DNA from: Methanospirillum hungatei JF-1
GTDB taxonomy: Archaea > Halobacteriota > Methanomicrobia > Methanomicrobiales > Methanospirillaceae
Assembly (NCBI RefSeq): GCF_000013445.1
Contig: NC_007796.1
Coordinates: 2,454,936 to 2,518,935 of the forward strand
Direction: 5' to 3'
DNA: 64,000 nt
Shown here: in pieces, positions 279-42,452 of the stretch
Layout: each line of letters starts with the position of its first letter
How positions within the stretch are numbered: position 1 is the first letter of the stretch
Position numbers and translations under genes: made by a program
Notes under the pieces: model-generated
The model's input: the letters and a program-made list of their open reading frames with translations, nothing else
Told to the model about the DNA's origin: nothing
Database searches by the model: none

Positions 279-628
279 TCTCTCACGTTCATATTGGATT
301 GCTCATTGTTACATACACCAGGATTGAGGCAATTATTGCTGCTAAGTGAGAGATGCATGGTTGGCTGTTAAACATACCATATGATGGCGGATGTTGCCGC
401 AAAGAGACATGATTTATGTTTAATCACCATTTTCATAACAACTAATTCATTGATGTATTGCAAGATGGCGAAGCGGCCATGCGGCTGATTGAAGAACACC
501 ACACGCAGGATTATCCGGATATCGGCTTAAAATCTGACAATATCACACATAATTTCAGGTATTGGGATTTAGGCCAATTTTATTCGATATTCACTTACGT
601 ATTCAGGAAGTCACACCCGGAAAGATAT
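279..628. other. Intergenic region between divergent ThiF-like and ThiI genes
   Basis: This 350-base AT-rich stretch separates two divergently transcribed sulfur-transfer genes and should hold both promoters. An open frame extends upstream of ThiI to a TTG at 458, but its residues lack family similarity and the first ATG that opens a normal ThiI is at 629. I see no RNA gene or convincing operator. Confidence 0.4.
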
Positions 629-1738
629 ATGAAACCTGACATCTGGCTTATCCGATATTCTGAAATATTTTTGAAAAGCGAACCTGTTCGTCGTGTATGG
701 GAGGATCTCCTTATCCAAACACTCAAACAAAAATTACCGGATTGTAGCATATCAAAAACACGGGGAAGGATATGGATAACCGGTGATGTAGATCCTGAAG
801 CAATCGCTCATACTTTCGGGGTGTATTCCTTTTCTCCGTGTATCATGTTCCCCTTGTCAGATCTCAATGAAAGAGTTCTCACATATGTAAAAGAAACCGG
901 TTTCTCTGCATACAAAACGTTTGCATTACGGATTAACCGCTCAGGGACACACCCTTTTACATCACAGGATCTGGCCCGAACACTCGGAGCATCCATCCAA
1001 AAATCATGGCCATCTATTGCTGTTGACCTCACCAATCCGGAATATGAATTACATATTGAGGTCCGGGATGAACAGTGCTACCTGTATCAGGAGATCATAT
1101 CCGGTCCCGGGGGAATTCCGCAGGGAGCATCAGGCACTCTTGTCGCCCTGCATTCCGGAGGAATTGACTCGCCGGTTGCCATGTACATGATGATGAAACG
1201 GGGGACGATACTTCACCCGGTATACGTGAAAATCGCTCCATTTCATGATGATAGTTCTGAAGAACGGGCACATCTGATTGTAGAACATTTGAGGAAATAT
1301 CAGCCGGATCTAACCCTTGAGGTCATTGATGATGGGCATGTGTACGCTACCAGGATGGAACTGAAAAAACGGGACCTTGAAAAGTATGCCTGTGTTCTCT
1401 GCAAACGGCACCTGTACCGGATCGCCGAGCAAAAAGCACGCGCAATCGGGGCAAAAGGGATTGTCACCGGTGAGTCACTGGCACAGGTAGCTTCTCAGAC
1501 CCTTGATAACTTGTACGTCCTGGATGATGCGGTCTCAATGCCGGTATATCGTCCCCTCATTGGATTTGATAAAGAAGAGACCATAGCAGTCGCAAAAAAA
1601 ATCGGGACATATGATCTATCAGTCATGCAGGTTCCCAGCTGTTGCTGTGCCATTCCCTTTAAGCCGGCGACCACATCCCAGCGGGAAACGATATCTACCC
1701 TTGAAGAGGAACTAGCAAAAGGATCTCCAGCCAAATAA
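629..1738 (+). CDS. thiI: tRNA 4-thiouridine sulfurtransferase ThiI
   Basis: ThiI adenylates uridine 8 of tRNA and replaces its oxygen with sulfur. The 369-residue product starts MKPDIWLIRYSEIFLK, the usual ThiI opening, so I place the start at ATG 629 rather than the TTG further upstream. An N-terminal ferredoxin-like region and a THUMP domain (about residues 60-150) precede the PP-loop SGGIDS at residues 176-181. There is no rhodanese domain, as usual for archaeal ThiI. A CVLC pair and a CCC cluster near the C-terminus are candidate persulfide or Fe-S ligands; the CxxC matches the motif known to be essential in methanococcal ThiI. It is probably cotranscribed with the LarE-like gene 3 bases downstream. 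Confidence 0.9.
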   Translation: MKPDIWLIRYSEIFLKSEPVRRVWEDLLIQTLKQKLPDCSISKTRGRIWITGDVDPEAIAHTFGVYSFSPCIMFPLSDLNERVLTYVKETGFSAYKTFALRINRSGTHPFTSQDLARTLGASIQKSWPSIAVDLTNPEYELHIEVRDEQCYLYQEIISGPGGIPQGASGTLVALHSGGIDSPVAMYMMMKRGTILHPVYVKIAPFHDDSSEERAHLIVEHLRKYQPDLTLEVIDDGHVYATRMELKKRDLEKYACVLCKRHLYRIAEQKARAIGAKGIVTGESLAQVASQTLDNLYVLDDAVSMPVYRPLIGFDKEETIAVAKKIGTYDLSVMQVPSCCCAIPFKPATTSQRETISTLEEELAKGSPAK

Positions 1739-17433: not shown

Positions 17434-18615
17434 ATGAATATACAGACGATTCGGGAAGATATACCGCTCACTCGGGATCTTATTTATTTTGATAATGCAT
17501 CTACCAGCCTGATGCCATCATCAGTAACGCGGATTATGGAGGATTATGAGACTTCATTCAGATCAAATGTAGGAAGAGGGGTTCACCGTCTCTCCCAGGT
17601 GAGTTCACAACTCTATTGGGATGCACATGAGAAGGTAAAAGCATTCATTGGTGGAACAGACGGGGTTAGTATTTTTGGAAAAAACTGCACTGAAGGGATA
17701 AACCAGGTCGCGTATGGCCTCCGACTGAATCCGGGGGATCATGTAATCACATCAGTCCTGGAGCATCATTCCAACATACTCCCATGGATGCACCTGCGAA
17801 AACAGGGTATCAGCGTGGACTTTGTCAGGCCTGATGCAGAGGGATATCTGCACCCCCAGTCCTTTTCAGAACTCATTCAAAAGGAGACCAGACTTATTAC
17901 CTTCACCCACGTTTCAAATGTAACAGGAACCATCCAGCCGGCAAAAGAGATATGTTCTATCTCTCATGACCATGATATAAAAACCCTGCTAGACGGTGCA
18001 CAGTCCGTACCCCATATTCCGGTTGACGTATCAGATATTGGGTGCGATTATCTCTCATTCTCCGGCCATAAGATGCTTGGGCCAACCGGAACTGGTGTCC
18101 TCTGGATGAAAGAGCCAGACCTGGAACCATTTATTCTGGGTGGCGGGAGCATCAAATCGGTAACGACCAGCGAATACACGTTGGAAGACGGTTATATGAA
18201 ATATGAAGCAGGTACCCCTCACATAACCGGAGCAGTGGGCCTTCGAGAAGCCATAAGAATTCTAAACCATGTTGGGATGAGATCTGTTCAGGAACATGAA
18301 TTATCCCTGACACGGGATATAATACACGGGCTTTCTCATATACCCGGAGTTACATTGTACGGACCAAAAGGAACAGACTCACGTCTTGGTGTTGTCTCTT
18401 TTACTATCGAGGGTCAGCATCCGCATGAATCAGCCCATCTGCTGGATGATCAATATGACATCATGGTTCGATCCGGTCATCATTGCTGTATGCCATTGAT
18501 GGATCATTTCGCGATCCCGGATGGAACGGTCAGGGCAAGCCTGTATCTCTATAATACAAGAGAAGAAGTTAAAAAATTTCTAGAAGCGGTGACAGAAATC
18601 TCGGAGGGTATCTGA
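17434..18615 (+). CDS. SufS-like cysteine desulfurase
   Basis: Class V aminotransferase-fold desulfurase that releases sulfur from cysteine as an enzyme persulfide. The 393-residue protein has IYFDNASTSLMPSSV at the N-terminus, PLP-binding Lys213 in SFSGHKMLGPTGTG, and the catalytic-loop Cys351 in VRSGHHCCMP, which is the group II (SufS) type. It is closely similar to the C-terminal domain of the fusion at 32.4 kb, sharing RSNVGRGVHR and EKV-AFIG. The fdhD gene begins 2 bases after its stop, so it is probably the dedicated sulfur donor for FdhD. It is divergent from nadA. Confidence 0.93.
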   Translation: MNIQTIREDIPLTRDLIYFDNASTSLMPSSVTRIMEDYETSFRSNVGRGVHRLSQVSSQLYWDAHEKVKAFIGGTDGVSIFGKNCTEGINQVAYGLRLNPGDHVITSVLEHHSNILPWMHLRKQGISVDFVRPDAEGYLHPQSFSELIQKETRLITFTHVSNVTGTIQPAKEICSISHDHDIKTLLDGAQSVPHIPVDVSDIGCDYLSFSGHKMLGPTGTGVLWMKEPDLEPFILGGGSIKSVTTSEYTLEDGYMKYEAGTPHITGAVGLREAIRILNHVGMRSVQEHELSLTRDIIHGLSHIPGVTLYGPKGTDSRLGVVSFTIEGQHPHESAHLLDDQYDIMVRSGHHCCMPLMDHFAIPDGTVRASLYLYNTREEVKKFLEAVTEISEGI

Positions 18616-18617
18616 AT

Positions 18618-19382
18618 ATGTATGAAATACTTCCCTGTTATGGAGAAGAGGATGGCGTTTACACAGCACGGACTCATGAAGTGATTATTGAAGAGCGGTA
18701 TACCATCTGGGTCAATGGCAGGAAGATCCTGAACGCCATGACCAGTCCGACCAGGCTTGAGGAATTTGTCATTGGGTATCTGGTGACGGAAGGAATCATC
18801 TCTCACTGCCAGGAGATTGACTCACTGCAGATTGAAGGAAACCAGATCAGAGTACTCACCATTCACCGGGCACACATCCGCAGTGGAACTAAGACGGTCC
18901 TCTCAGGATGCGGGGGAGACAGTTCATACCTTGATCCGGCCAGGCTCCCGGACATCACTTCAGATTTTCAGATATCCGGAGAGAGAATTCATGCGACAAT
19001 AAAAAAAATTCTGGATTCAGACCTTCACCGGTTGACAGGGGGTATTCATGTAGTCGGACTTGCCGGTATTGATGGAGTCCATACCGTTGCAGAAGATATT
19101 GGTAGACATAATGCTCTTGACCGGGTGATAGGCTATGCCCTGCAGCATGACATTGACTTATCACACTGTTATGCAGTAATATCAGGGCGGATATCTTCAG
19201 AGATGGCACGAAAATGCCTGGTCGCGAACATCCCGCTTATCGTATCCAGGGGAGCGACAACAACCCTCGCCATCCATCTTGCACAGGGCAAAGGACTTAC
19301 CATCATCGGATTTGTCCGGGGAAGAAAAATGAACATCTATACACATCCGGAACGGATACCCGGGATAGAAATCGTTAAATAA
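18618..19382 (+). CDS. fdhD: FdhD, formate dehydrogenase sulfurtransferase
   Basis: FdhD passes sulfur from a desulfurase to the molybdenum/tungsten cofactor of formate dehydrogenase, an essential enzyme for formate-using methanogens. The 254-residue protein has DIGRHNALDRVIGYAL and GRISSEMARKCLVANIPLIVSRGA, the family core. The usual CxxC sulfur-shuttling pair is reduced to a single Cys98 in LSGCGGDSS. It is cotranscribed with the SufS-like gene 2 bases upstream, making the supply of sulfur direct. No formate dehydrogenase subunits are in the window. Confidence 0.93.
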   Translation: MYEILPCYGEEDGVYTARTHEVIIEERYTIWVNGRKILNAMTSPTRLEEFVIGYLVTEGIISHCQEIDSLQIEGNQIRVLTIHRAHIRSGTKTVLSGCGGDSSYLDPARLPDITSDFQISGERIHATIKKILDSDLHRLTGGIHVVGLAGIDGVHTVAEDIGRHNALDRVIGYALQHDIDLSHCYAVISGRISSEMARKCLVANIPLIVSRGATTTLAIHLAQGKGLTIIGFVRGRKMNIYTHPERIPGIEIVK

Positions 19383-23096: not shown

Positions 23097-24080
23097 TTAC
23101 AATTTTTTTTCAAATACCGAACTGAATTCCGCATTTTCTTGAGAGATCTTCCAGTCCCAGGGATCATGAATAATGGTTATCTCAACATCAGAAACCCAGG
23201 GAATGAGGCGTACCCGTGCTGAAGCCTGGTCTATGAGATAGTCCTGAAGTGGACATGCATCGCAGTTAATTTCCATTTCTATCTTAACCAGTGTGTCTGT
23301 TATCGTAATTGATCTGATCAGATCAACATCCACGATATTATGCCCGATTTCAGGATCAATTACCTGCCTTAATGCATTCAGAACTTCAGAATCCCTATCT
23401 CCGGAGATTTTCAGTTCTGCTCCGCCTTTCAACAACGCATTCTCCCGCTCCAGCCTGAATATGCGGCCCTCAAGTGCCTGCTGCCGCTCAAGCAATCTGC
23501 TGATAACCCGGAGGGTCGGATCAGGCATAGCAGAATCGCGAATGTTGTCCTGAGTCGTGTACTTCTCGAGACCGGCAATACGCCCAGGAACCCCGACTAC
23601 AGTAGCACCTGGAGGTACATCCCGGACAACGACTGCACCCGCACCAATCTTTGCATATTCTCCCACATAAATCGGCCCTAGAACGGAGGCACCAGAACCG
23701 ATAACCACCCCTTTGCCTATTGTGGGGTGACGTTTTACATTTTTCAGTGCAGTTCCACCAAGAACTACCCCCATGTAAATAAGAACATCATCACCAACTT
23801 CAGCCGTTTCCCCAATCACCACACCCATCCCATGATCTATTACCACCCGTCTGCCAATAATGGCACCAGGGTGAATCTCAATCCCGGTAAAAAAGCGGGC
23901 AATATGTGACAGGAACCGCCCGGTCAGAAACCAGTCATGAATCCAGGCCTTATGAGCGATACGGTGGAGCAATAATGCATGGAGTCCCGGATAACAGAGG
24001 AGAATCTCAACAACACTTTTGGCAGCCGGATCTTTTGATATAATCGCTTGAATGTCTTCACGTAAATGAGATAATACCAT
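23097..24080 (-). CDS. cysE: Serine O-acetyltransferase fused to a MIP18/DUF59 domain
   Basis: Residues 1-180 are CysE: a helical N-terminus and a left-handed beta-helix with IDHGMGVVIGETAEVGDDVLIY, GGTALKNVKRHPTIG and VPPGATVVGVPGR, which makes O-acetylserine for cysteine synthesis. A coiled-coil linker (186-217) leads to residues 229-306, a MIP18/DUF59 (SufT-like) domain with IDPEIGHNIVDVDLI and Cys273/Cys276 in CDACPLQ, normally involved in Fe-S cluster assembly. Bacterial CysE of this type is about 220 residues; this one has 327. The fusion ties cysteine synthesis to Fe-S assembly. Confidence 0.9.
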   Translation of the reverse strand: MVLSHLREDIQAIISKDPAAKSVVEILLCYPGLHALLLHRIAHKAWIHDWFLTGRFLSHIARFFTGIEIHPGAIIGRRVVIDHGMGVVIGETAEVGDDVLIYMGVVLGGTALKNVKRHPTIGKGVVIGSGASVLGPIYVGEYAKIGAGAVVVRDVPPGATVVGVPGRIAGLEKYTTQDNIRDSAMPDPTLRVISRLLERQQALEGRIFRLERENALLKGGAELKISGDRDSEVLNALRQVIDPEIGHNIVDVDLIRSITITDTLVKIEMEINCDACPLQDYLIDQASARVRLIPWVSDVEITIIHDPWDWKISQENAEFSSVFEKKL

Positions 24081-24314: not shown

Positions 24315-24509
24315 ATGAAACTTATGCTCCCGGATCAATCAGTGATTGAGGTAAAGGTCGAGGGAAGAACAATCGAGACGATACTAAATAGCCAGGGCAT
24401 TGATCCGCTGACGACATTGATTTCACGGGAGGACGAGATCATCCCGGAAGATGCCATCCCCGATGAGGAGGATGTCATAAGAGTCATTCGGATCTCCCAT
24501 GGCGGATAA
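24315..24509 (+). CDS. ThiS/MoaD-like small sulfur carrier
   Basis: This 64-residue beta-grasp protein ends in ISHGG, the thiocarboxylatable di-glycine. It overlaps the next gene by 11 bases, where GGCGGATAA carries both the last glycines and the beginning of the thiolase. That arrangement, plus the archaeal SAMP/Urm1-type chemistry, suggests that it carries sulfur to the Ncs6-like enzyme. The protein is short, so the identification rests on the fold pattern, the tail and the neighbourhood. Confidence 0.82.
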   Translation: MKLMLPDQSVIEVKVEGRTIETILNSQGIDPLTTLISREDEIIPEDAIPDEEDVIRVIRISHGG

Positions 24510-25428
24510 AAAGATACACTGCGAAAAGTGCGAAAAGCCCGCAGTCTACCTTGACCGGGAGCGGGAAATTCATCTCTGCAGTGACCACCTGAAAGAATCT
24601 GTAGAGAATGAAGTGCGAAGGTACTTGATAACGAAAAGACTCCCAAAGACACTCGGGGTTGCCTTTTCAGGAGGGAAAGACAGTACCGCCTTACTCAAAG
24701 TGTTGAGTGAAATCAGGAGTGAATTCCCCAGTAGTATCATCGCACTAACCGTTGATGAAGGAATAGAGGGATATCGTCAGGATACAATCCGGGCAGCCAC
24801 AGAAACATGTCTGACACTTAGGATACCCCATGAGATCATCAGGTTTCAGGACCTGTATGGACACTCTCTGGATCATTTGGTATCAGGATCAGAGCGAAAT
24901 GCCTGCACCATCTGTGGAATCCTTCGCCGTCGGGCACTTGAAGTTCTGGCGCAAAAACATAAGATCACTATGATTGCGACCGGACATAACCAGGATGACC
25001 ATGCCCAGACCACCGTGATGAATGCCATTTCAGGAGATGTGAGAAAGATCTTTACCGGATATGAACCCTCCTCGTGGTACGCACAACGAATCAAACCATT
25101 TGCCAGGGTGAGCGAGAAAGAAGTAACTCTCTACGCTCTCCTGAGCGGATTATTTAAAGATCTGTCGGAGTGCCCATATGCAGTATCTTCACTTCGGGGA
25201 GAGGTCAGAACACTCCTGTACCAGTATGAACAAAAACATCCAGGAGCAATGAGAAATGCTGCCCGGTGTGAAGAAGAGATCAGGGAAAGATTAGGAGAAA
25301 TCTACCAACAGGAAGCATATAAGACCTGTTCAATCTGTGGGTGGCCGGGTTCGGGAACCATCTGCCAGGTGTGTATGGTTCTCGGCAAGGATACTCACCT
25401 TCAAAATCCTATGACGAAAGAAAAATAA
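24499..25428 (+). CDS. Ncs6/TtuA-family tRNA thiolation enzyme
   Basis: Members adenylate a tRNA uridine (position 34 or 54) and replace oxygen with sulfur delivered by a ubiquitin-like carrier. The 309-residue protein has an N-terminal zinc finger (Cys8, Cys11, Cys27, His30), PP-loop SGGKDST (57-63), a central CTICG, TGHNQDDHAQT and a C-terminal zinc finger (CSICGWPGSGTICQVC). The central Cys and zinc-finger pattern matches the Fe-S-dependent TtuA/Ncs6 group. It overlaps its likely carrier by 11 bases and precedes NifS and IscU. Confidence 0.92.
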   Translation: MADKKIHCEKCEKPAVYLDREREIHLCSDHLKESVENEVRRYLITKRLPKTLGVAFSGGKDSTALLKVLSEIRSEFPSSIIALTVDEGIEGYRQDTIRAATETCLTLRIPHEIIRFQDLYGHSLDHLVSGSERNACTICGILRRRALEVLAQKHKITMIATGHNQDDHAQTTVMNAISGDVRKIFTGYEPSSWYAQRIKPFARVSEKEVTLYALLSGLFKDLSECPYAVSSLRGEVRTLLYQYEQKHPGAMRNAARCEEEIRERLGEIYQQEAYKTCSICGWPGSGTICQVCMVLGKDTHLQNPMTKEK

Positions 25429-25487
25429 GCAGTATCATTGCAGATACACCTCATCTACTATCAGTACATACATATATTCACGATACC

Positions 25488-26684
25488 ATGGCCAGTCAAA
25501 AGAGCATTTACATGGATCACAGTGCCACTACTGCCACTGATTCAGCAGTTGTAGAGGCCATGCTCCCTTGGTTCTCGATCAATTATGGAAATCCCTCTTC
25601 CCTGTACCGTCTTGCACGAGAATCCAAAGCCGCGATCGAGGATGCACGAAAAAAGGTTGCAAACGCCATCGGAGCGAAATCTGAAGAGATATACTTTACC
25701 TCCGGAGGGACCGAATCAGATAACTGGGCACTAAAAGGTACTGCATTTGCCCTTCAAAAGAAAGGAAACCATATCATCACTTCTGCTATTGAGCACCATG
25801 CAATCCTGCATACCTGCCAATATCTCGAGAAACATGGCTTTCAGGTCACCTATCTTCCGGTTGACGAGTTCGGACAGGTCCGTATAGAGGATCTCAGGGC
25901 AGCGATCACTGATAAGACCATTCTGGTCTCGGTGATGTTTGCCAATAATGAGATCGGCACCATTCAGCCCATTCCGGAGATCGGAGCGTTCTGCAGAGAA
26001 CGGGGCATTCTTTTCCATACCGATGCAGTCCAGGTGATTGGCAATCTCCCTGTTGATGTTGCAGCGATGAACATTGATCTGTTATCACTCTCTGCTCACA
26101 AGTTTTACGGGCCAAAAGGAATAGGAGCGCTCTATATCAGGAAAGGAGTCCGTATCGATAATTACCTTCATGGAGGCGGACAGGAACACAGGAAACGGGC
26201 AGGTACAGAAAATGTTCCCGGGATTGTAGGTCTTGGCGTTGCAATCCAGAAAGCAGTTATGGATCTGGATGTAAAAACATCACGGATACGAGCCCTTCGC
26301 GATACGTTACTCGATCGGATTCTCCATGAGATTCCAAATACCCGTCTGAACGGGCACCGGACCATGCGACTCCCAGGGAACTTGAACGTCAGCTTTGAGT
26401 TTATCGAGGGTGAATCATTATTGCTACTCCTTGACCATGCCGGTATCGCTGCATCGACCGGTAGTGCCTGTTCCTCAGGATCACTTGAGCCCTCACATGT
26501 ATTACTCGCGATAGGTCTCCCGGCAGAGGTTGCCCATGGGTCCCTGCGGCTCACCCTTGGAGTGCAAAATACAGAAGAGGACGTGAGCTACGCATGTGAT
26601 GAAATTAAAAAAGCGGTCGAACGTTTGAGAGCGATGTCACCACTCTATGCTGATTACCTGAAAAAGAGGTCATGCAATGTATAG
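25488..26684 (+). CDS. nifS: NifS/IscS-type cysteine desulfurase
   Basis: The 398-residue enzyme makes persulfide sulfur for Fe-S clusters and tRNA thiolation. Features are IYMDHSATTATDSAVV, YFTSGGTESDNWAL, PLP Lys205 in SAHKFYGPKG and the mobile catalytic loop Cys328 in STGSACSSGSLEPSHV (group I, NifS/IscS type). I start at ATG 25488; the frame extends back to 25341, inside the Ncs6-like gene, and ATG 25512 is also possible. It overlaps IscU by 8 bases, making a standard desulfurase-scaffold pair downstream of a thiolation pair. Confidence 0.95.
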   Translation: MASQKSIYMDHSATTATDSAVVEAMLPWFSINYGNPSSLYRLARESKAAIEDARKKVANAIGAKSEEIYFTSGGTESDNWALKGTAFALQKKGNHIITSAIEHHAILHTCQYLEKHGFQVTYLPVDEFGQVRIEDLRAAITDKTILVSVMFANNEIGTIQPIPEIGAFCRERGILFHTDAVQVIGNLPVDVAAMNIDLLSLSAHKFYGPKGIGALYIRKGVRIDNYLHGGGQEHRKRAGTENVPGIVGLGVAIQKAVMDLDVKTSRIRALRDTLLDRILHEIPNTRLNGHRTMRLPGNLNVSFEFIEGESLLLLLDHAGIAASTGSACSSGSLEPSHVLLAIGLPAEVAHGSLRLTLGVQNTEEDVSYACDEIKKAVERLRAMSPLYADYLKKRSCNV

Positions 26685-27108
26685 CGAAAAAGTAATGGAC
26701 CATTTCATGAACCCCCGCAACCAGGGGGAGATACCAGACGCAGACGGTGTCGGAGAAGTAGGAAATCCCACTTGTGGGGATATTATGCGAATTTTTCTCA
26801 CGGTGAAGGATAATATCATCACCGATGTAAAATTCCAGACCTTTGGGTGTGGAGCAGCAGTTGCATCAAGCAGTATGGCAACCGAACTAATCAAGGGGAA
26901 AACCCTTGAAGAAGCCTGGGAAGTATCTAATAAAGCAGTTGCCGAGGCACTTGAGGGACTTCCTCCGATCAAGATGCATTGTTCAGTTCTTGCAGAAGAA
27001 GGTATTCACAAAGCCATCAACGATTACCGGATAAAGAACGGATTGGAACCCTGGGAAGAAAAAGGTGGGCATACCCACAGTCATGATGACCTGGCCTGTG
27101 AGGAGTAA
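26677..27108 (+). CDS. iscU: IscU/NifU-type Fe-S scaffold
   Basis: This 143-residue scaffold assembles [2Fe-2S] or [4Fe-4S] clusters from NifS-derived sulfur. The three ligand cysteines are in NPTCGD, FGCGAAVASSS and KMHCSVLAEEG. The C-terminus carries a GGHTHSHDDLACEE extension with His, Asp and an extra Cys, possibly a metal tag. It overlaps nifS by 8 bases. The gene ends just before a convergent ATPase, and no hscA or fdx follows. Confidence 0.95.
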   Translation: MYSEKVMDHFMNPRNQGEIPDADGVGEVGNPTCGDIMRIFLTVKDNIITDVKFQTFGCGAAVASSSMATELIKGKTLEEAWEVSNKAVAEALEGLPPIKMHCSVLAEEGIHKAINDYRIKNGLEPWEEKGGHTHSHDDLACEE

Positions 27109-32377: not shown

Positions 32378-35035
32378 ATGCACGAGCCGGCTGTGAAAAA
32401 AACACTGTACTGGTGTGAACACTGCAATGTTCCCCTGATCGGACGAACCTGCAGCTGCGGCAATGAAGCAAAAACCATCCCTCTCCTTCAGCCCTATGAT
32501 CTCCGGCCTGCTCTCTCGGCTGATCGGGATCACATCATCCACTTATTAACATCCCAATACGGCGACATTCCTGTCCCGAAAGTAATTCTGTTAAATAAGA
32601 CCGGGGGATATGATCGTGCAGAACTTGTTATCATCAATGGGCAGCGGTTTGGCTGGTTTACGTTTGATCCGGTGACAAAAACCTATTCACTTGATATCAC
32701 CCCTGAAGCTCTGCCATTTCTGGTCCCCCACATAACAAAAGGAATCATTGACCTGACTGCTCATATCGATCTGAAGGCTGAAAAAGGGAGAATCGGCGGA
32801 AAACGATTCCCCCTGAAAGAACCGGTCCCGGATGGATCAGTCATTGTCACGGCAAATGGGAAGTACGGGACAGCCATTGTGAAAGAGGGATATATCAAAG
32901 TAAAAGAACTCCTCCCGATTACCCCCTCCACCTATCCGGACCCTGACTGGGAAGCGGTCATTACTCACAATACGTATCATCTGAAGAACCTGGAGCGGAA
33001 CGCGGTCAGGACCATTAAAAGTCACATGAAAGACCGGCCCACGGTCAATGTATCGTTTTCCGGTGGAAAGGACAGCACGGCAGTTCTTCACCTGGCACGA
33101 AAAGCCGGAGTGGAGAAGGCATTTTTTATCGATACCGGACTTGAGTTCCCCGAAACCATCCGATTCATCGAGGAGCAGGGGGTTGAGATCATCAGGAAGG
33201 GTGGTGACTTCTGGCAGGCGGTGGAGAAAGCAGGACCCCCTGGCAAGGACAACCGGTGGTGTTGTAAACTTCTCAAATTACACCCACTAAAGATATATCT
33301 TGCAGACACCGGCCCCTGTGTCACCATTCAGGGAAACCGCTGGTATGAGTCATGGAACCGGGCCGGTCTTGATGAGACCAGTCAGAATCCGGCAAATCCC
33401 CTGCAGCTGAATATATCCCCCATCCGGAGCTGGAGGGCCTTTGAAGTATTCCTCTATCTCTGGTGGCGGAAGATCCCATTAAACCCCCTGTATGAACGAG
33501 GGATTGAGCGAATCGGGTGTTATCTCTGTCCTGCCATGCTTGAAAGTGAATATGACTCTATCCGAAAGACACATCCGGATTTCACCGAGCGGTGGGATGC
33601 ATTTCTTCAGAGGTGGGCTGACAAGAAACAGATGCCGGACGCCTATACTGACTGGGGTCTGTGGCGATGGCGGGCACTCCCTCCTAAGATGCGTGAGTTA
33701 TGCAGGAACATGGGAGTCCATGTCAATAATGATTTCACCCTGGCACCAACGAAGGAGAGAAAGAAGAAGCAGCAAAGCCAGAACGGCTCTCCTATAGAGC
33801 AGAAGAGAGCAGAAGTAGGACTGGAGTTGGATGATCTAATCCGTGCAATCAGGCATGATTATCCCATCCTTGGAGATGTCGTATACCTGGATAATGCTGC
33901 GACCAGTTGTTCGCCTGAACCGGTTGTTGAGGCCATGGTTGAATTTGAGCACCGGTACAGGTCAAATGTCGGAAGAGGGGTTCATCGGTTTACCCGGATA
34001 GCGACCCAGCGGTACTGGCATGCCCATGAAAAGGTAGCCGAATTCATCGGGGCACAGGGCGGCATTACGGTCTTTACAAAAAATACCACCGAAGCGATAA
34101 ACATGGTCGCTCATGGCCTCAGCTGGACTCCTGGTAACCGGGTTGTCACGACCATCCTTGAACATCACTCAAACCTCCTGCCCTGGAGATCACTTGAGAA
34201 GCAGGGTGTCACCCTTGATATCGTCGGCATACGTCCGGATTATTCCCTGGACATGGATGCATTCCGGAAGATGCTGGAAAAACCGGTCAGACTTGTGGCA
34301 ATTACCCAGGCATCAAATGTTCTCGGCATCATTACCCCGGTGCATGAGATAGCTGCCTTGTGCAGGGAAAAAGGAGTGCTTCTTCTCATCGACGGAGCTC
34401 AGGCAGCCCCCCATATGCCGGTGAATGTATCGTCAATCGGATGTGATTTCTACTGCTTTTCCGGGCATAAACTAGGCGGGCCGACCGGGACTGGTGTTCT
34501 CTGGATGAAAGAACCCCTACTGACTCCCCTGATGCAGGGGGGTGGAACCGTTGAATCGGTTACCGGTGACGATGTTGTACTGATACAGGGTTATGAGCAA
34601 TACGAAGCGGGTACACCCAACATCGCCGGAGGCATCGGATTAGGCGTTGCAGTTGATTACCTCAGGAAAATCGGGATGGACACGATCCATTCCCATGAAG
34701 AAGATCTTACCAGCCGCCTGATTGAAGGCCTCCATACCATCGAGAGAGTCCGGGTATATGCATCAGGAAACCCCGAAACCAGAATAGGGGTTGTTTCATT
34801 CACCGTTGAAGAGATGCATCCCCATGAGATAGCTCAACGACTGGATGAGCATGATATTCTGGTCAGGTCAGGACATCACTGCTGCCAGCCGCTGATGAAT
34901 GCCCTGAATCTGCCAGATGGAACGGTTCGGGTCAGTATTGCACATTACAATACCAGAGAGGAGATCGATCTCTTCCTTGCTACTCTGAAAGAGATTATCG
35001 CCGGTTCTTCACCAGGTAATCCGCTCAGGTCGTGA
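32378..35035 (+). CDS. Fusion of [4Fe-4S] PAPS/APS-reductase-like PP-loop protein and SufS-like desulfurase
   Basis: This 885-residue protein starts at ATG 32378 (a TTG at 32315 gives a longer, less likely frame). Order: zinc ribbon (Cys13, 16, 25, 27); a PUA-like region (about 45-180); PP-loop SFSGGKDST (Ser228) with WCCKLLKLHPL and, 84 residues later, CYLC, the CC-x80-CxxC arrangement of [4Fe-4S] APS reductases; a Lys/Gln-rich linker (about 455-482); and a SufS-like domain (485-885) with PLP Lys698 and Cys835. The N-terminal part alone occurs widely in archaea; the desulfurase fusion is striking. A plausible role is direct sulfur handover from cysteine to a PP-loop-activated RNA or metabolite. 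A divergent fdhD lies at its 3' end. Confidence 0.88.
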   Translation: MHEPAVKKTLYWCEHCNVPLIGRTCSCGNEAKTIPLLQPYDLRPALSADRDHIIHLLTSQYGDIPVPKVILLNKTGGYDRAELVIINGQRFGWFTFDPVTKTYSLDITPEALPFLVPHITKGIIDLTAHIDLKAEKGRIGGKRFPLKEPVPDGSVIVTANGKYGTAIVKEGYIKVKELLPITPSTYPDPDWEAVITHNTYHLKNLERNAVRTIKSHMKDRPTVNVSFSGGKDSTAVLHLARKAGVEKAFFIDTGLEFPETIRFIEEQGVEIIRKGGDFWQAVEKAGPPGKDNRWCCKLLKLHPLKIYLADTGPCVTIQGNRWYESWNRAGLDETSQNPANPLQLNISPIRSWRAFEVFLYLWWRKIPLNPLYERGIERIGCYLCPAMLESEYDSIRKTHPDFTERWDAFLQRWADKKQMPDAYTDWGLWRWRALPPKMRELCRNMGVHVNNDFTLAPTKERKKKQQSQNGSPIEQKRAEVGLELDDLIRAIRHDYPILGDVVYLDNAATSCSPEPVVEAMVEFEHRYRSNVGRGVHRFTRIATQRYWHAHEKVAEFIGAQGGITVFTKNTTEAINMVAHGLSWTPGNRVVTTILEHHSNLLPWRSLEKQGVTLDIVGIRPDYSLDMDAFRKMLEKPVRLVAITQASNVLGIITPVHEIAALCREKGVLLLIDGAQAAPHMPVNVSSIGCDFYCFSGHKLGGPTGTGVLWMKEPLLTPLMQGGGTVESVTGDDVVLIQGYEQYEAGTPNIAGGIGLGVAVDYLRKIGMDTIHSHEEDLTSRLIEGLHTIERVRVYASGNPETRIGVVSFTVEEMHPHEIAQRLDEHDILVRSGHHCCQPLMNALNLPDGTVRVSIAHYNTREEIDLFLATLKEIIAGSSPGNPLRS

Positions 35036-35749
35036 TAGTATCAATAATCGGGTATCCTGTATGATACCAATACATAGCCCGTTTTTCTGACCTATTTGAG
35101 CCGCAAGACGTGTGCAATGTCCGGTCGTGAGGAGAACCGGGATCCCGGCCATCAGGCATTTTCGGACGGTTTCAGAAGTTACGGTATGTGAACAGAGACA
35201 ATAGGTTGATGAGAAATCAATTTTTCCGATGAGTCCTGCGCCAATCATCCGGTCTGTCACCTGATCATCGCCGATATCCTGCCGGAACATGAGGCATTGA
35301 GGAGGCCGGTATAGAGCTGATACAACCAGGCCCGGTTGTCTCTCCTCATTGGCCATGAAATGAGCGATTGTGGGTGCAATGGTTGAAGCAGGGATGGTAA
35401 AGGTCCCAGTCAGAACAGGAAGTTTACCAGGATCGATATACGAGACAGCACCGCCGCATCCGGATAGAATTGTTTTTTTCGGGCCGGGGCTTGAGAATAT
35501 ATTTGTCGTGAGAACACTGGCACGGTTTTTTTCAACCCGTATTGACTCAATTTCATCGGCGGTTTTGATATACTGCTCAGTAAAGAGATAACCGGTCACA
35601 TATTCACGGATGTTTCCGGAACCAAGAAGAACTGTTGAGATATGCCTGCCATTGATGAATATCGCAACCGGTTCCTCATCACACAAAAGTGAAGCAGCAT
35701 CCTTCGGGGAACCGGACAGATGCTCTGATGAGAGATCAAGAATTTTCAT
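35009..35749 (-). CDS. Divergent FdhD paralogue
   Basis: The 246-residue protein is similar to the FdhD at 18.6 kb in layout and carries the same single Cys98 in ILSGCGGAVSY. It lacks the family's GRHNALDK: the region reads DIGDDQVTDRMIG. Near the C-terminus it has GIPVLLTTGHCTRLAAQ. Loss of that motif points to a changed partner or function. Its stop region overlaps the end of the desulfurase fusion by 27 bases, tail to tail, so the pair may interfere at the RNA level. It lies next to a SufS-like domain, as does the first FdhD. Confidence 0.85.
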   Translation of the reverse strand: MKILDLSSEHLSGSPKDAASLLCDEEPVAIFINGRHISTVLLGSGNIREYVTGYLFTEQYIKTADEIESIRVEKNRASVLTTNIFSSPGPKKTILSGCGGAVSYIDPGKLPVLTGTFTIPASTIAPTIAHFMANEERQPGLVVSALYRPPQCLMFRQDIGDDQVTDRMIGAGLIGKIDFSSTYCLCSHTVTSETVRKCLMAGIPVLLTTGHCTRLAAQIGQKNGLCIGIIQDTRLLILSRPERITW

Positions 35750-37470: not shown

Positions 37471-39960
37471 TTATTTTTTAAATGTTTGTAACAAAGTATC
37501 AATTTCATGAATCATTTCCCGAATATCTCCATACCGTTCATTTTTATCAATATGCACGGATTTTTTAATAATCGGATCATACACTCCATAATCTGACCGA
37601 AAATGTGAGGGAAGTGAACTTATGCTTTCAAAACAATTGAGAACCTGTCCTGATAAAAGATAATAAAAGATCGCCCCTACCTGATAGATATCCGTCTTTT
37701 TACCAGGATTGCCAAATTTTTCAGGATTCCTCTGCTCAGGGGCAATAACCCAGCAATCATCAGGAATGCCAGACTGAATCAACGCAGAAGTATCAAACCC
37801 AGATATTTTCGGTTGTAATCCATCATCAAGAAAGATGACAGAGGGCTCAAGAAGGTAGTGTCGGACACCCTGTCGATGTATGTAATCAATCCCTTCTGCA
37901 AGCCCCCGAACAATACGAAGTGCAGCCCTCGCGGGTATGGGCACTTTCAGATCTGCCAGCGAATAGATCCTCTTTTTCGATTGTATTGCACCGGATGGAA
38001 GATCAAATTCCAGGAAATAAACAGGATCACGTTCCCAGAACTTGATCTGCATAATATTCATATGCTTAAGTGACCGCCACGCCTGTATCTGTAATTCAAC
38101 CTGAGAGGCAGGGATTACCCCGGAATCAAGAACCCTGACAGCAACTTCTATATTATCAGCAGCCCGGAGAGCCCGGTACATAATACCAAGCCTATCTGTT
38201 GAGATCAATGCAGATGGTTTGTAGATGGGCAGTAAAGAGTCTGGAAATCCTGTCAAAGAGGGAGAGAGAGATACCTGAGTGGCATTGCCTTCCTGTGCAT
38301 CCACCTTTCTCTTTACATCAGGCTCATGGTCACGTATGTCAGATGAATCCATGGTATTAACTTCTGAAGAAGAATCCATCTTCCTCTTAATCAGATCCCG
38401 ATACCGCTTGAGGGTACCATCATCATTCCCCAAATCGATCTGCTGGTTAAACCATTCCAGGGATTCTGAGTACTTTTTGGAGAAGAATAGAAATATCCCC
38501 TTATTGTAAGGGATCTTCACCGACAGCGGGAAGGAATATTCATTTTCAGTCAGGATACGTAATTTTTTGTATACCGATAGTTCATCCGAATCAGGAACGT
38601 CCATTACCAATTCGATACCCCGCTCTTCTCCTGATGCAAGAAGGATTGAATCTGCTTCAAGAGGAAAGGGATTATTATTTTTTATCTTGAGTATTGCAAT
38701 GATATTCCCTTTTTTCTGAATGAAGCGTTCAAAAAACCATGACAGATCGAGGTCTCTGGGCATGATACGATACTGAAGGTGAATTACCCGGCTTTTTTCT
38801 TTTCCGTTCCCATCAATATACGAAACCGCCTGGGATACCTCACAATCTCCGGGATCATCATCAAATATCTCCCGAAAAACAATCCTGCATACTCCGGGTT
38901 CAATCCGAATCGTATCAACAACAATTGGTTTTGTCCCCATGTTTGTAATTTTCAATTTGAGTGATTTTTTATCTCCCTGTTTAAATAGTCCTGCAACAGG
39001 GTCAAACCTCACATCATCAGATGATATTCTTCTTCGTGTTTCGATTGCAAAATCCCGGCCACTCTCCTTCTGAACAGAGGAGGGAAGGACATGTGAAACC
39101 ACGAATTTTATCCTTTTGATCTCACCAGAAATAACCACAATCGAAATTACCGCTACCGTCGTCAGCGTAATAATTACCCCGAGGATGATGAAAAAATTAG
39201 ATAAGATCAAAGTCAGGACGGGATTGGAGTTTTCCAGTAAGAGTGATTCTTTTGTTTCAATCAAAACCCCTGACTTTTCCGGACTATAGGTGATTGAATG
39301 GATGGAATTCGGTTTTACCTCGATATCGCTCTCCATCACACCTTCTTTTCCTTTAACCACAACATGATGAATGCCCACTGGAATATGAGGAAGAGTTAAC
39401 GGGGTCAGACCTGCAGGCATACCATCAAGTTCAACAGGTACATGAAGTGGCCCTGCAGTAACCTGTATACTACCGGAATTCTGATCATTATGTGGCAATC
39501 CCGTGGTAATTTCCATTGAGAGGAACACTGGATCTGAAATCCTGTTCGTTTTCCCGCTTGGTAACAATCGAACAACAGCAAAGGCGAGTTTTACCTGACC
39601 GACATTATGCGCTGATATGAGAAAAGGGAACTGGTAACTCTGCCCGGTATGAACCCGGGATCCTTTCGGTAACAGTTGTAACGGTGGATCAACGGTGATA
39701 AGGTTTGAATCCCCAGAATATTCGACACCTATCTTTTCAACATCATGTTCCCAGGCAGTCATACCCGTATTACGAAACTCAACCATGTATTGGCCATTCT
39801 GACCTGGATACATTACATCAGGAATACTGTCTGAAGAATACTCTCCGCCCTGAAACGTAATACCAGATATTGAACCCTGATCAACACAACAGACAGGGGT
39901 AATAATTAAAAAAGATATAAAAATGAAGAACAATAGAATAAAAAACGAATGGGAACTCAT
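37471..39960 (-). CDS. Membrane-anchored PEGA protein with degenerate kinase-like domain (paralogue 1)
   Basis: The 829-residue protein has a signal peptide; a repeated extracellular domain (SDSIPDVMYPGQ, FRNTGMTAWE); a PEGA domain (GSIQVTAGPLHVPVELDG); a membrane helix near 250-275; an Ig-like and helical cytoplasmic part; and a kinase-fold domain (about 600-829). APEQRNPEKFG and TDIYQVGAIFYYLLSG are kinase-typical, but HRD is replaced by HYL (701-703), DFG by GFD (721-723), and the beta-3 Lys by Arg (VAVRVL). It is predicted to be catalytically inactive. It overlaps paralogue 2 by 4 bases. Confidence 0.85.
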   Translation of the reverse strand: MSSHSFFILLFFIFISFLIITPVCCVDQGSISGITFQGGEYSSDSIPDVMYPGQNGQYMVEFRNTGMTAWEHDVEKIGVEYSGDSNLITVDPPLQLLPKGSRVHTGQSYQFPFLISAHNVGQVKLAFAVVRLLPSGKTNRISDPVFLSMEITTGLPHNDQNSGSIQVTAGPLHVPVELDGMPAGLTPLTLPHIPVGIHHVVVKGKEGVMESDIEVKPNSIHSITYSPEKSGVLIETKESLLLENSNPVLTLILSNFFIILGVIITLTTVAVISIVVISGEIKRIKFVVSHVLPSSVQKESGRDFAIETRRRISSDDVRFDPVAGLFKQGDKKSLKLKITNMGTKPIVVDTIRIEPGVCRIVFREIFDDDPGDCEVSQAVSYIDGNGKEKSRVIHLQYRIMPRDLDLSWFFERFIQKKGNIIAILKIKNNNPFPLEADSILLASGEERGIELVMDVPDSDELSVYKKLRILTENEYSFPLSVKIPYNKGIFLFFSKKYSESLEWFNQQIDLGNDDGTLKRYRDLIKRKMDSSSEVNTMDSSDIRDHEPDVKRKVDAQEGNATQVSLSPSLTGFPDSLLPIYKPSALISTDRLGIMYRALRAADNIEVAVRVLDSGVIPASQVELQIQAWRSLKHMNIMQIKFWERDPVYFLEFDLPSGAIQSKKRIYSLADLKVPIPARAALRIVRGLAEGIDYIHRQGVRHYLLEPSVIFLDDGLQPKISGFDTSALIQSGIPDDCWVIAPEQRNPEKFGNPGKKTDIYQVGAIFYYLLSGQVLNCFESISSLPSHFRSDYGVYDPIIKKSVHIDKNERYGDIREMIHEIDTLLQTFKK

Positions 39961-42452
39961 GCATCATCACCGGATAGTGCCATACCTTCTTTTATATAAA
40001 AATCAGGTATTATTCCCTTCAGATCATCTAAAAATGCCTCAACTGAAGCATACCGATCCTTTTTAAAACGGGCTGTAAGTTTCTTTAACAATGGAATATA
40101 CAATTCAAAAGAGGGATCAGAAGTCACATTATCCATTGTCATTGAAATAATCTCATCCGCAGATTCTCCCTTTTCCATTATCCGGCCGGTCATCAGCCAG
40201 AGCCATATTACTCCCAATTGGTATATATCCGTTCTTTTTCCGGGTTTGCCAAAAAAGGAAGGGTCCACCTGTTCTGGTGCACAGACAAAAAATTCCTCAA
40301 CCCCGCCTCCTCCCGCACTTCGAAGTGATTCACGGATAAGACCAGATATTTTAGGATTCAATGGCTCATCCAGAAGAATATATTTTGGTGAGAGATGGTA
40401 ATGACGGACACCTTGCCGGTGAAGATATGCAAGCCCTTCTGCAATCTTTTCAATCAGCAGGGAAGAGACATGATTGGGGAGCGGGACTGGTAAATCTGAT
40501 ACCCTCATATATTGTTTATCTTCATACCACCCTCCGGAGACAAATTCAAGTTCCAGCATAACAACCGGATAAAATTCTGCTTTATACATCCGGAGCACAT
40601 AGGGATGACGAAGTTGATAGAGAAGAGAGATTTCAGTGAATAACGATGAGCCGATTTTTTCAATGGTTCGGGGAATTTTAAGAGCACGTAAATCACCGGT
40701 GTCATTTTTCCGGACCAGGATTACCGTAGCAAACGGATCATCTCCCAGAACACGGATAGGAGTATACCGGTCAGATAATTCATCAGGATATCCGGAAATT
40801 TTAATTACAGCATCTGAACCAGCTTTGTCCTTTTTTCGTGCTGCTTTATCCTGAATTTGATTCAGAGCATTCAGGGCAGCTTCATGTTCAGGATCCAAGA
40901 CCAGGATCTCTTGCAAAACTGACTGTGCCTCTTCTTCCAGACCCCAATTTAAAAGGATTTGAGCCTGTTGAAATAATCCGTCAACATTGTCCGGGTGTGT
41001 CACCAGTAATGCTCTAAAATACTCATATGCCTTTTCAACCACTCCCCGTGCAAGTAACGCAATCCCCCGGTTATATGGGATAATAATATTTTTAAAGAAC
41101 TCTGAACCCTCTGCAAAAATACGAAGTGAAATAATTGTATCAGGTTCATCATTCGTTGGTTCACTGATTTCAACAGGTACTATCCCGAATCCACCAGGAC
41201 TGATAGTGTGATCCTCTACCGATACCGGAACAGAAGAATGATTTGATACTCCAATGCTCGCTGTTGCAGAACCGGGCCGGGTTGTTAAATCCCGAAACTG
41301 GAAATCCACATCATCTTTTATAGTATCTGGTTTTGTTGGTTTTGAGGAGGGTTTCGGTTTTGAGGAATCTTTAGTAGAATTTTTCTTTTCAATTCCTTTT
41401 GAGGATTTTTTTCTTGAAATATGACCGGTTCCAGATCGATCAGATACTTTGCCATATACGCCATGAGAGATATCAGATGATGATGACAATCCTTCAAATA
41501 ATGGTTTTTTGCTATGTATTTTATCCAGTAGATCTTTTTCTTTTTTTGACCGCTCTTTTTCAGGGTCCTCTTCATCCTCCTTATCTTCTTTTTTCTTTCT
41601 ATCCTTTTCGGTTCGGTTTCGTTTTCTCAGTCCATACATACCAACACCGATACACGCAAGAAGGATCAATGAAATTATAATTATCAATGGAACATTCACT
41701 TCAATATATCCGATAAGGGTCCCGTCAGATACCGGCCCTGCCCTTTTCTTTGTAACAACCGGGATTTTTTCATCACCTCTCACGAGAAGACGTGTCATAA
41801 CTCCCCGTTCCACATCAACCGAAAACGTTCGCTCAAAGGTATCATTCTTTACCCGTATCATATACTGACCTGGTTTCACATCAGCAATTATCGCAGGGAC
41901 ATTTCCCATAAATGCTGAATCAAGGTAAACATCCAGATCCAGTACCGGGCTTTCTACAAAGATCGACCCATTTACCGGTGATGAGATCCCGTCGGTTGGG
42001 ACAATAGTCACATGCTTTACAAACACTTCGGTTATCTTCTGGTCACCGGTTGCTGACCGCATGACAACCGAGAAGGAGAGATCATAAGAACCCGGAGTCC
42101 CCACCGGGAGGAGGGTAAATCCAAAAGTTGCATGTTTACCGGGGGTAATATTCAGATCACGGGAGATCTCCACAAAAGAGGGGACAGCAGTAACTTTTGT
42201 CATATCACCTTCATAGAGGAGGCCAATCCGCCTCATTTCATCCTGCCAGCTGACAAGACCAGTGTTCCGGAATGTAACCAGAACAGGATATGAATGACCT
42301 GGGAGTAAGGTATCGGGGATGGTATCTGATATGTACGAAGGTCCAAAGCCGGGAGATATCACCCACTGTTCTTGTGCATAAACCGGGGATAATATCACTG
42401 AAATGACAAGGAGAATGAATAGTATGATAGGGACCATTCGTACCAGGCTCAA
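39957..42452 (-). CDS. Membrane-anchored PEGA protein with degenerate kinase-like domain (paralogue 2)
   Basis: The 831-residue protein has a signal peptide, the shared outer domain (SDTIPDTLLPGHSYPV, FRNTGLVSWQ), a PEGA domain (GSIFVESPVLDLDVYLDS), a membrane helix (VPLIIIISLILLACIGVGMY), a long charged Lys/Glu linker and an SSKPKPSSKP stretch, TPR units (EKAYEYFRALLVTHPDN) and a C-terminal kinase fold. Lys592 (RALKIP) and a helix-C Glu are kept, but HRD is HYH (684-686) and DFG is GLI (704-706). APEQVDPSFFG and TDIYQLGVIWLWLMTG remain. It is probably a pseudokinase that may still bind nucleotide. It overlaps paralogue 1 by 4 bases. Confidence 0.87.
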   Translation of the reverse strand: MSLVRMVPIILFILLVISVILSPVYAQEQWVISPGFGPSYISDTIPDTLLPGHSYPVLVTFRNTGLVSWQDEMRRIGLLYEGDMTKVTAVPSFVEISRDLNITPGKHATFGFTLLPVGTPGSYDLSFSVVMRSATGDQKITEVFVKHVTIVPTDGISSPVNGSIFVESPVLDLDVYLDSAFMGNVPAIIADVKPGQYMIRVKNDTFERTFSVDVERGVMTRLLVRGDEKIPVVTKKRAGPVSDGTLIGYIEVNVPLIIIISLILLACIGVGMYGLRKRNRTEKDRKKKEDKEDEEDPEKERSKKEKDLLDKIHSKKPLFEGLSSSSDISHGVYGKVSDRSGTGHISRKKSSKGIEKKNSTKDSSKPKPSSKPTKPDTIKDDVDFQFRDLTTRPGSATASIGVSNHSSVPVSVEDHTISPGGFGIVPVEISEPTNDEPDTIISLRIFAEGSEFFKNIIIPYNRGIALLARGVVEKAYEYFRALLVTHPDNVDGLFQQAQILLNWGLEEEAQSVLQEILVLDPEHEAALNALNQIQDKAARKKDKAGSDAVIKISGYPDELSDRYTPIRVLGDDPFATVILVRKNDTGDLRALKIPRTIEKIGSSLFTEISLLYQLRHPYVLRMYKAEFYPVVMLELEFVSGGWYEDKQYMRVSDLPVPLPNHVSSLLIEKIAEGLAYLHRQGVRHYHLSPKYILLDEPLNPKISGLIRESLRSAGGGGVEEFFVCAPEQVDPSFFGKPGKRTDIYQLGVIWLWLMTGRIMEKGESADEIISMTMDNVTSDPSFELYIPLLKKLTARFKKDRYASVEAFLDDLKGIIPDFYIKEGMALSGDDA

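Follow-up and report, generated by a model that had tools for sequence, protein, structure and literature searches.

A PP-loop protein fused to a SufS-like cysteine desulfurase in Methanospirillum hungatei and its order: a probable sulfurtransferase

Does an archaeal protein that joins a domain of the PAPS reductase family to a cysteine desulfurase serve sulfate assimilation, as its published label proposes, or does it pass the sulfur of cysteine to another substrate, and if so, to which? The question is raised by a gene of Methanospirillum hungatei JF-1, located in the window analysed here (a stretch of 64,000 nucleotides), in a host genome that forms a single contig of 3,544,738 bases. The original prediction described the product as a single chain made of a zinc ribbon, a PUA-like region, a PP-loop with an Fe-S signature, and a complete SufS-type desulfurase, and suggested that it could be an undescribed RNA- or cofactor-thiolating machine.

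Architecture, conservation and spread of the fusion

The features of the gene, in window positions, are:

32378-35035, + strand: whole fusion gene (zinc ribbon, PUA-type module, PP-loop/Fe-S domain, SufS domain), 885 aa
32402-32482, + strand: zinc ribbon CxxC...CxC (Cys 13, 16, 25 and 27), residues 9-35, invariant in 25 fusions
32483-32923, + strand: pre-PUA and PUA-type fold over residues 36-182, including an invariant R138-x-GGK142 motif (AlphaFold2 model compared with PDB structures)
32945-33757, + strand: PP-loop/PAPS_reduct domain, residues 190-460 (Pfam PF01507; 2goy, E 4e-9)
33059-33076, + strand: PP-loop motif SGGKDS (228-233), ATP pyrophosphatase type (motif conservation)
33260-33265, + strand: putative Fe-S cysteines C295-C296, invariant in 25 fusions
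33518-33529, + strand: putative Fe-S cysteines C381-x-x-C384, invariant in 25 fusions
33758-33826, + strand: low-confidence linker, residues 461-483 (pLDDT <50 at 461-482), differing widely in length between species
33827-35011, + strand: SufS-type cysteine desulfurase domain, residues 484-878 (NCBIfam; Foldseek to 1t3i)
34469-34471, + strand: PLP lysine Lys698, kept in 24 of 25 fusions
34880-34882, + strand: persulfide cysteine Cys835 in RSGHHCCQP, kept in 22 of 25 fusions

The open reading frame runs from an ATG at 32378 to a stop codon at 35033-35035 with no internal stop, and its orthologues share the same initial Met; an alternative upstream TTG (32315) is possible and unconserved. The claim of a single-chain fusion holds, in that the 885 codons are unbroken and Pfam domains are found in both halves, namely PAPS_reduct (PF01507) at residues 223-386 (E 2.6e-36) and Aminotran_5 at residues 502-866 (E 1.5e-120). 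Among NCBIfam models, the N half matches best PRK13795, a 'hypothetical protein' family (NF010366), at 392.9 bits, below the curated equivalog cut-off of 745, and the C half falls in the SufS subfamily with a TIGR01979 score of 412.9 bits, below the curated cut-off of 475.1, so that it is termed SufS-like. The C half has the SufS fold, with a Foldseek TM of 0.92 to SufS (1t3i) over about 400 residues, and contains both the PLP lysine and a persulfide cysteine in the RxGxHC context; Lys698, Cys835, and the CC pair followed 84 residues later by CxxC are all present as first described. In the full-length model (pLDDT 87.4, pTM 0.77) the domains are individually confident and residues 461-482 of the linker are disordered, a feature that would allow contact between the two active sites, which is a permissive property rather than a demonstration of such contact.

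The 'PUA-like' front end finds no Pfam PUA match in the fusion at E values up to 10; its fold is nevertheless borne out by structure prediction. The AlphaFold2 model of residues 1-209 (pLDDT 90.8) retrieves PH0734.1 at rank 1 and AF0587 at rank 2 in Foldseek, and Nip7 as the best match in VIA-align (122 residues, rmsd 3.4, with Z 8.1, a lone Z near 8 being weak proof), along with RsmF, MCT-1, eIF2D and APE0525. All named chains among the top 14 structural matches are proteins that we take to be of the PUA type, and the 14 include three unnamed chains from pre-60S particles, probably Nip7. Another PP-loop protein encoded by M. hungatei (L003, paralogue B) carries a genuine Pfam PUA domain (E 2e-20) on the same PP-loop domain, and compared with it the PUA sequence motif of the fusion has decayed. 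The predicted fold thus supports the term 'PUA-like', a statement about architecture rather than a demonstration of RNA binding.

Both active sites are conserved across Methanomicrobiales. The zinc-ribbon cysteines, SGGKDS, C295-C296 and C381/C384 are kept in all 25 full-length fusions in which conservation was scored, and in a wider set of 81 homologues of the N half, the SGGKDS motif and the CC/CxxC set each occur in 80. The desulfurase residues show a few exceptions among the 25, with Lys replaced by Arg and Cys by Asp in one genome (G002) and Cys replaced by Gly in two others (G121 and G168). The concern that catalytic residues might be lost in relatives is therefore answered only in part: both sites are conserved order-wide, but Cys835 is gone in these genomes. 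Three fusion loci (L047, L062 and L068) lack Cys835, the first of them Lys698 as well, and appear to be pseudo-desulfurases kept in frame.

One unbroken match over both halves is found in at least 118 of 199 Methanomicrobiales genomes, as a row count of the search, and a form with a longer linker in at least 8 further genomes; hosts include Methanospirillum, Methanoculleus, Methanoregula, Methanocalculus, Methanocorpusculum, Methanofollis and Methanolinea. Among the best 80 named loci, 67 are fused and only 5 are unfused without a contig end as the cause. At an M. hungatei isolate locus (L119), the N half is 97% identical. An assembly join or frameshift between the halves, a possibility that had been raised, is excluded by this recurrence of the intact fusion.

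Sulfate reduction or sulfur transfer

The protein cannot be called undescribed. A cysteine desulfurase domain at the C terminus had been noted by Yu et al. 2018 (PMC6286981) in proteins that they named, by clustering, putative APS/PAPS reductases; these have the same architecture and, to judge from how they are described and from their length of up to 896 aa, are probably the same proteins. A literature search on archaeal PAPS reductases with PUA domains, or on the fusion under other names, returned nothing beyond that paper.

The proposal of Yu et al. 2018, extended to an added SufS half that handles cysteine sulfur, would make the N half an assimilatory APS/PAPS reductase. It has in its favour the PF01507 domain, the APS-reductase-like Fe-S cysteines, and M. 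jannaschii homologues reported to reduce APS or PAPS (PMC10322725, PMC6286981), the activity of MJ0973 having a low Vmax and kcat (PMC3448663). The fusion, however, occurs without sulfate activation, without the catalytic cysteine and without the reductase-type loop. The M. hungatei genome contains no ATP sulfurylase, no CysD and no credible APS kinase (threshold E <1e-20), and its only two PF01507 proteins are the fusion and L003, neither of which is CysD. Across the order, ATP sulfurylase is absent in 118 of 119 genomes (present in one) and a credible APS kinase occurs in 5 of 119, leaving nearly all of these genomes with no source of APS or PAPS; APS_kinase matches at E ~1e-4, seen in most genomes, were set aside as noise from partial P-loop matches. 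A C-terminal ECGLH cysteine is present in none of the 81 homologues. In the alignment to the APS reductase 2goy, the phosphate loop reads SGGKDS, the ATP type, in the fusion versus SGAED in 2goy, and the PUA-type module is likewise left without a role in such a reductase. C442 was considered as a reductase cysteine and rejected, being missing in an unfused protein of the A' group (L198) and in paralogue B.

The APS/PAPS reductase label thus fits badly and is contradicted by the genomes, and the idea that the N-terminal part is solely an assimilatory reductase, which the original prediction had named as fatal to itself, runs against the missing sulfate activation, the ATP-type loop and the lack of the ECGLH cysteine. 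We regard that assignment as unlikely, and it is quite probable that the protein is a sulfurtransferase rather than a sulfate reductase. If so, a large archaeal family now labelled as sulfate-assimilation reductases would be a sulfurtransferase family. Within the archaeal 'PAPS reductase family' PRK13795/PRK08557 (NF010366, NF006327), the zinc ribbon, PUA-type region, PP-loop and CC/CxxC set align across the N half; outside the order, members carry a ferredoxin-type C-terminal domain where the fusion has SufS.

These orthologues from outside the order, in which a C-terminal dicluster ferredoxin follows the N half and several of which adjoin SudA/SudB-like (NfnAB-type) genes, could also suggest a redox enzyme using sulfide or polysulfide, with the ferredoxin tail and SufS as alternative suppliers of electrons or reduced sulfur. 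An ATP-type PP-loop and a PUA-type fold are unexplained by a purely redox role, and we hold this reading to be very improbable.

Origin of the fusion and its genomic neighbourhood

How the two halves came together can be traced in their trees. In the tree of N halves, the branches that split off ahead of the fused genes are the A' genes, which are unfused, an unfused pair (L063/L064) and an adjacent-gene form (L065); some five unfused lineages are nested within the fused part. A search for the two parts as adjacent genes had been suggested, and they do occur so at L065 and L075, where the N half and SufS are neighbouring same-strand genes. In the tree of SufS sequences, the fused and the adjacent forms fall into one clade (99/96), next to standalone SufS. 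Together, these sequence comparisons indicate a single origin of the fusion from an operon stage, with the N-half gene followed by sufS, and several later losses of the SufS half; an operon form preceding one fusion event ties the two halves by gene fusion. About five lineages have an N half without SufS, and these losses, together with those of Cys835, argue that the desulfurase is a losable accessory and not obligate. The unfused A' copies (L189-L205) lie beside grpE-dnaK-dnaJ in three families, with purH on the opposite side in L198.

The following neighbours of the fusion bear on the role of its C half:

35009-35749, - strand: FdhD2, a divergent FdhD paralogue, convergent and overlapping with the fusion (TIGR00129, E 1.8e-22, below cut-off)
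17434-18615, + strand: standalone SufS paralogue, sharing 50% identity with the C half
18618-19382, + strand: FdhD1, directly after the standalone SufS (profile match)

Of the 12 standalone SufS loci in the same SufS clade, 11 have fdhD as the next gene, an arrangement also seen in the window (17434-19382), and the SufS half appears to derive from such a sufS-fdhD operon; the fusion would then illustrate how a desulfurase left an fdhD operon and joined a PP-loop enzyme. Among 99 fused genes, 36 have an fdhD no more than two genes away, as against 0 among 34 unfused genes; the relatives compared are not independent, and these counts are not a significance test. The placement of fdhD varies, being convergent, downstream on the same strand (with 1-17 bp overlaps in one clade) or upstream on the same strand, and this variety suggests a retained linkage. 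FdhD2 itself scores far below the FdhD cut-off; in Methanospirillum its RHNALDRVIG motif is lost and the GCGG cysteine is kept.

The linkage admits a reading in which two separate jobs are merely tied together, SufS acting as the desulfurase for FdhD, in the sulfuration of the Mo/W cofactor of formate dehydrogenase and perhaps of formylmethanofuran dehydrogenase, and the N half being an enzyme of greater age that modifies RNA or a cofactor without drawing on SufS sulfur. The standalone sufS-fdhD pairs, the neighbour counts with their several orientations and overlaps, and the existence elsewhere of an N half without SufS all favour it. Against this, a fusion that has remained stable over six families after an operon form suggests a joint function, and many fusions have no fdhD nearby; the two-job arrangement is in our estimate rather unlikely, if worth keeping in view.

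A second neighbour is thiM. It comes immediately after 22 of 99 fused genes, in most cases with thiE behind it and largely within a single clade (Methanoregula and its kin), and the window too has a thiM close to the fusion. The PP-loop enzyme ThiI acts in both RNA and thiazole pathways, and by this precedent the fusion might thiolate not RNA but a small molecule or a carrier, for instance to supply the thiazole of thiamin. The largely single-clade occurrence, the gaps of mostly 60-160 bp, and the nature of ThiM and ThiE as salvage and coupling enzymes needing no sulfur donor weaken this idea, which also leaves the PUA-type module unexplained, and we consider it improbable.

Proposed function and comparison with known systems

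The reading that we prefer, held with about even confidence, is that of a PP-loop sulfurtransferase with ThiI/TtcA/DndC-like chemistry and its own covalently attached desulfurase, with RNA as the likeliest substrate and FdhD as a probable further recipient of sulfur from the SufS half. The SufS half would first strip sulfur from L-cysteine via PLP on Lys698, leaving a persulfide on Cys835. ATP bound at SGGKDS would then allow the PP-loop half to adenylate a substrate carbonyl presented by the zinc-ribbon/PUA module, most likely on a nucleobase of a structured RNA. Finally, the Cys835 sulfur would cross the flexible linker, either directly or via the putative Fe-S site of C295/C296/C381/C384, to yield a thionucleoside. 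A supply of sulfur to FdhD by the SufS half is probable because of the apparent sufS-fdhD operon ancestry.

Support for a PP-loop sulfurtransferase comes from the near-universal SGGKDS and CC/CxxC motifs and the missing ECGLH, from the PUA-type fold and the true PUA domain of L003, from the near absence of sulfate activation in the order and of CysD among the PF01507 proteins of M. hungatei, and from the operon form (L065) that preceded a fusion of single origin. In 27 of 60 near-complete genomes, moreover, the fusion is the sole close SufS relative. A dedicated desulfurase is known to pass sulfur straight to a PP-loop thiolase in the YrvO-MnmA and NifZ-ThiI pairs of B. subtilis (PMC5372739), and thionucleosides at unusual positions, s2C17 and s2U33, have been reported in methanogen tRNA (PMC7668247). 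Several observations count against the sulfurtransferase with a built-in donor. The donor seems dispensable, given N halves without SufS in the A' clade and several fused-clade lineages and the 12 of 60 genomes without any close SufS; a few fusions lack Cys835, and the PUA motif is more degenerate than in the paralogue; should the four Fe-S cysteines all be cluster ligands, the N half would have no invariant free cysteine left as a relay; and the neighbours are fdhD and thiM-thiE with no RNA genes. RNA is the likeliest, though unproven, substrate on the strength of fold and PP-loop chemistry.

By analogy, the parts match those of PP-loop thiolases, with an ATP loop, a putative Fe-S site, an RNA-type module and a sulfur donor. 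DndA and DndC pair a cysteine desulfurase with a PP-loop Fe-S protein of the PAPS reductase family. They are separate proteins that act on DNA, whereas the fusion is one chain with a desulfurase of the SufS class and a PUA-type module. The DndC profile gives weak matches, far below cut-off, in relatives. The tRNA thiolases TtcA, TtuA and NcsA likewise combine an ATP PP-loop with an Fe-S site; theirs are three-cysteine sites associated with different RNA-binding parts, in contrast to the four-cysteine CC/CxxC set and PUA-type module of the fusion. ThiI with IscS or NifZ similarly unites an RNA-binding module, a PP-loop and a sulfur donor, the donor being sometimes encoded next door (PMC5372739), but ThiI has a THUMP domain and belongs to another PP-loop subfamily, and the fusion shows no Pfam match to THUMP (PF02926) or the ThiI ATP domain (PF02568).

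In methanogens, sulfide is thought to be used and desulfurases are often missing (PMC5372739). A self-contained, cysteine-driven enzyme for RNA thiolation, producing an archaeal thionucleoside such as tRNA s2C17 or s2U33, or one at an rRNA site, in organisms whose general donor is believed to be sulfide, is possible but less likely than not, and the link to s2C17 and s2U33 is hypothetical. If the protein is a sulfurtransferase, the question of the thiolation donor in methanogens would become testable with one purified protein. A replacement of ThiI by the fusion was considered and rejected, since ThiI scores above cut-off in 55 of 60 genomes and M. hungatei has two true copies, the second in the window (458-1738, + strand) and the other at G000:C1:88983-90074.

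The surroundings are rich in sulfur-mobilisation genes. An island at 14766-35749 encodes MetX-CBS, NadA, the sufS-fdhD pair, MoaD, MoaE, a CsdA-like desulfurase, a CysE-like protein, an NcsA-like protein, IscS, IscU, ThiM, the fusion and the second FdhD, with four class-V desulfurase-type genes in 18 kb. Within it, three successive overlapping genes (24499-27108) encode an NcsA-like PP-loop protein, IscS and IscU and constitute a second PP-loop and desulfurase pairing, here as separate genes, and the CysE-like hexapeptide acyltransferase (23097-24080, - strand) is fused to an FeS_assembly_P (MIP18-type) domain. On the other side of the fusion, a tandem pair of large, related proteins, each with a protein-kinase domain at its C terminus (37471-42452, - strand), is conserved beside it in the genus.
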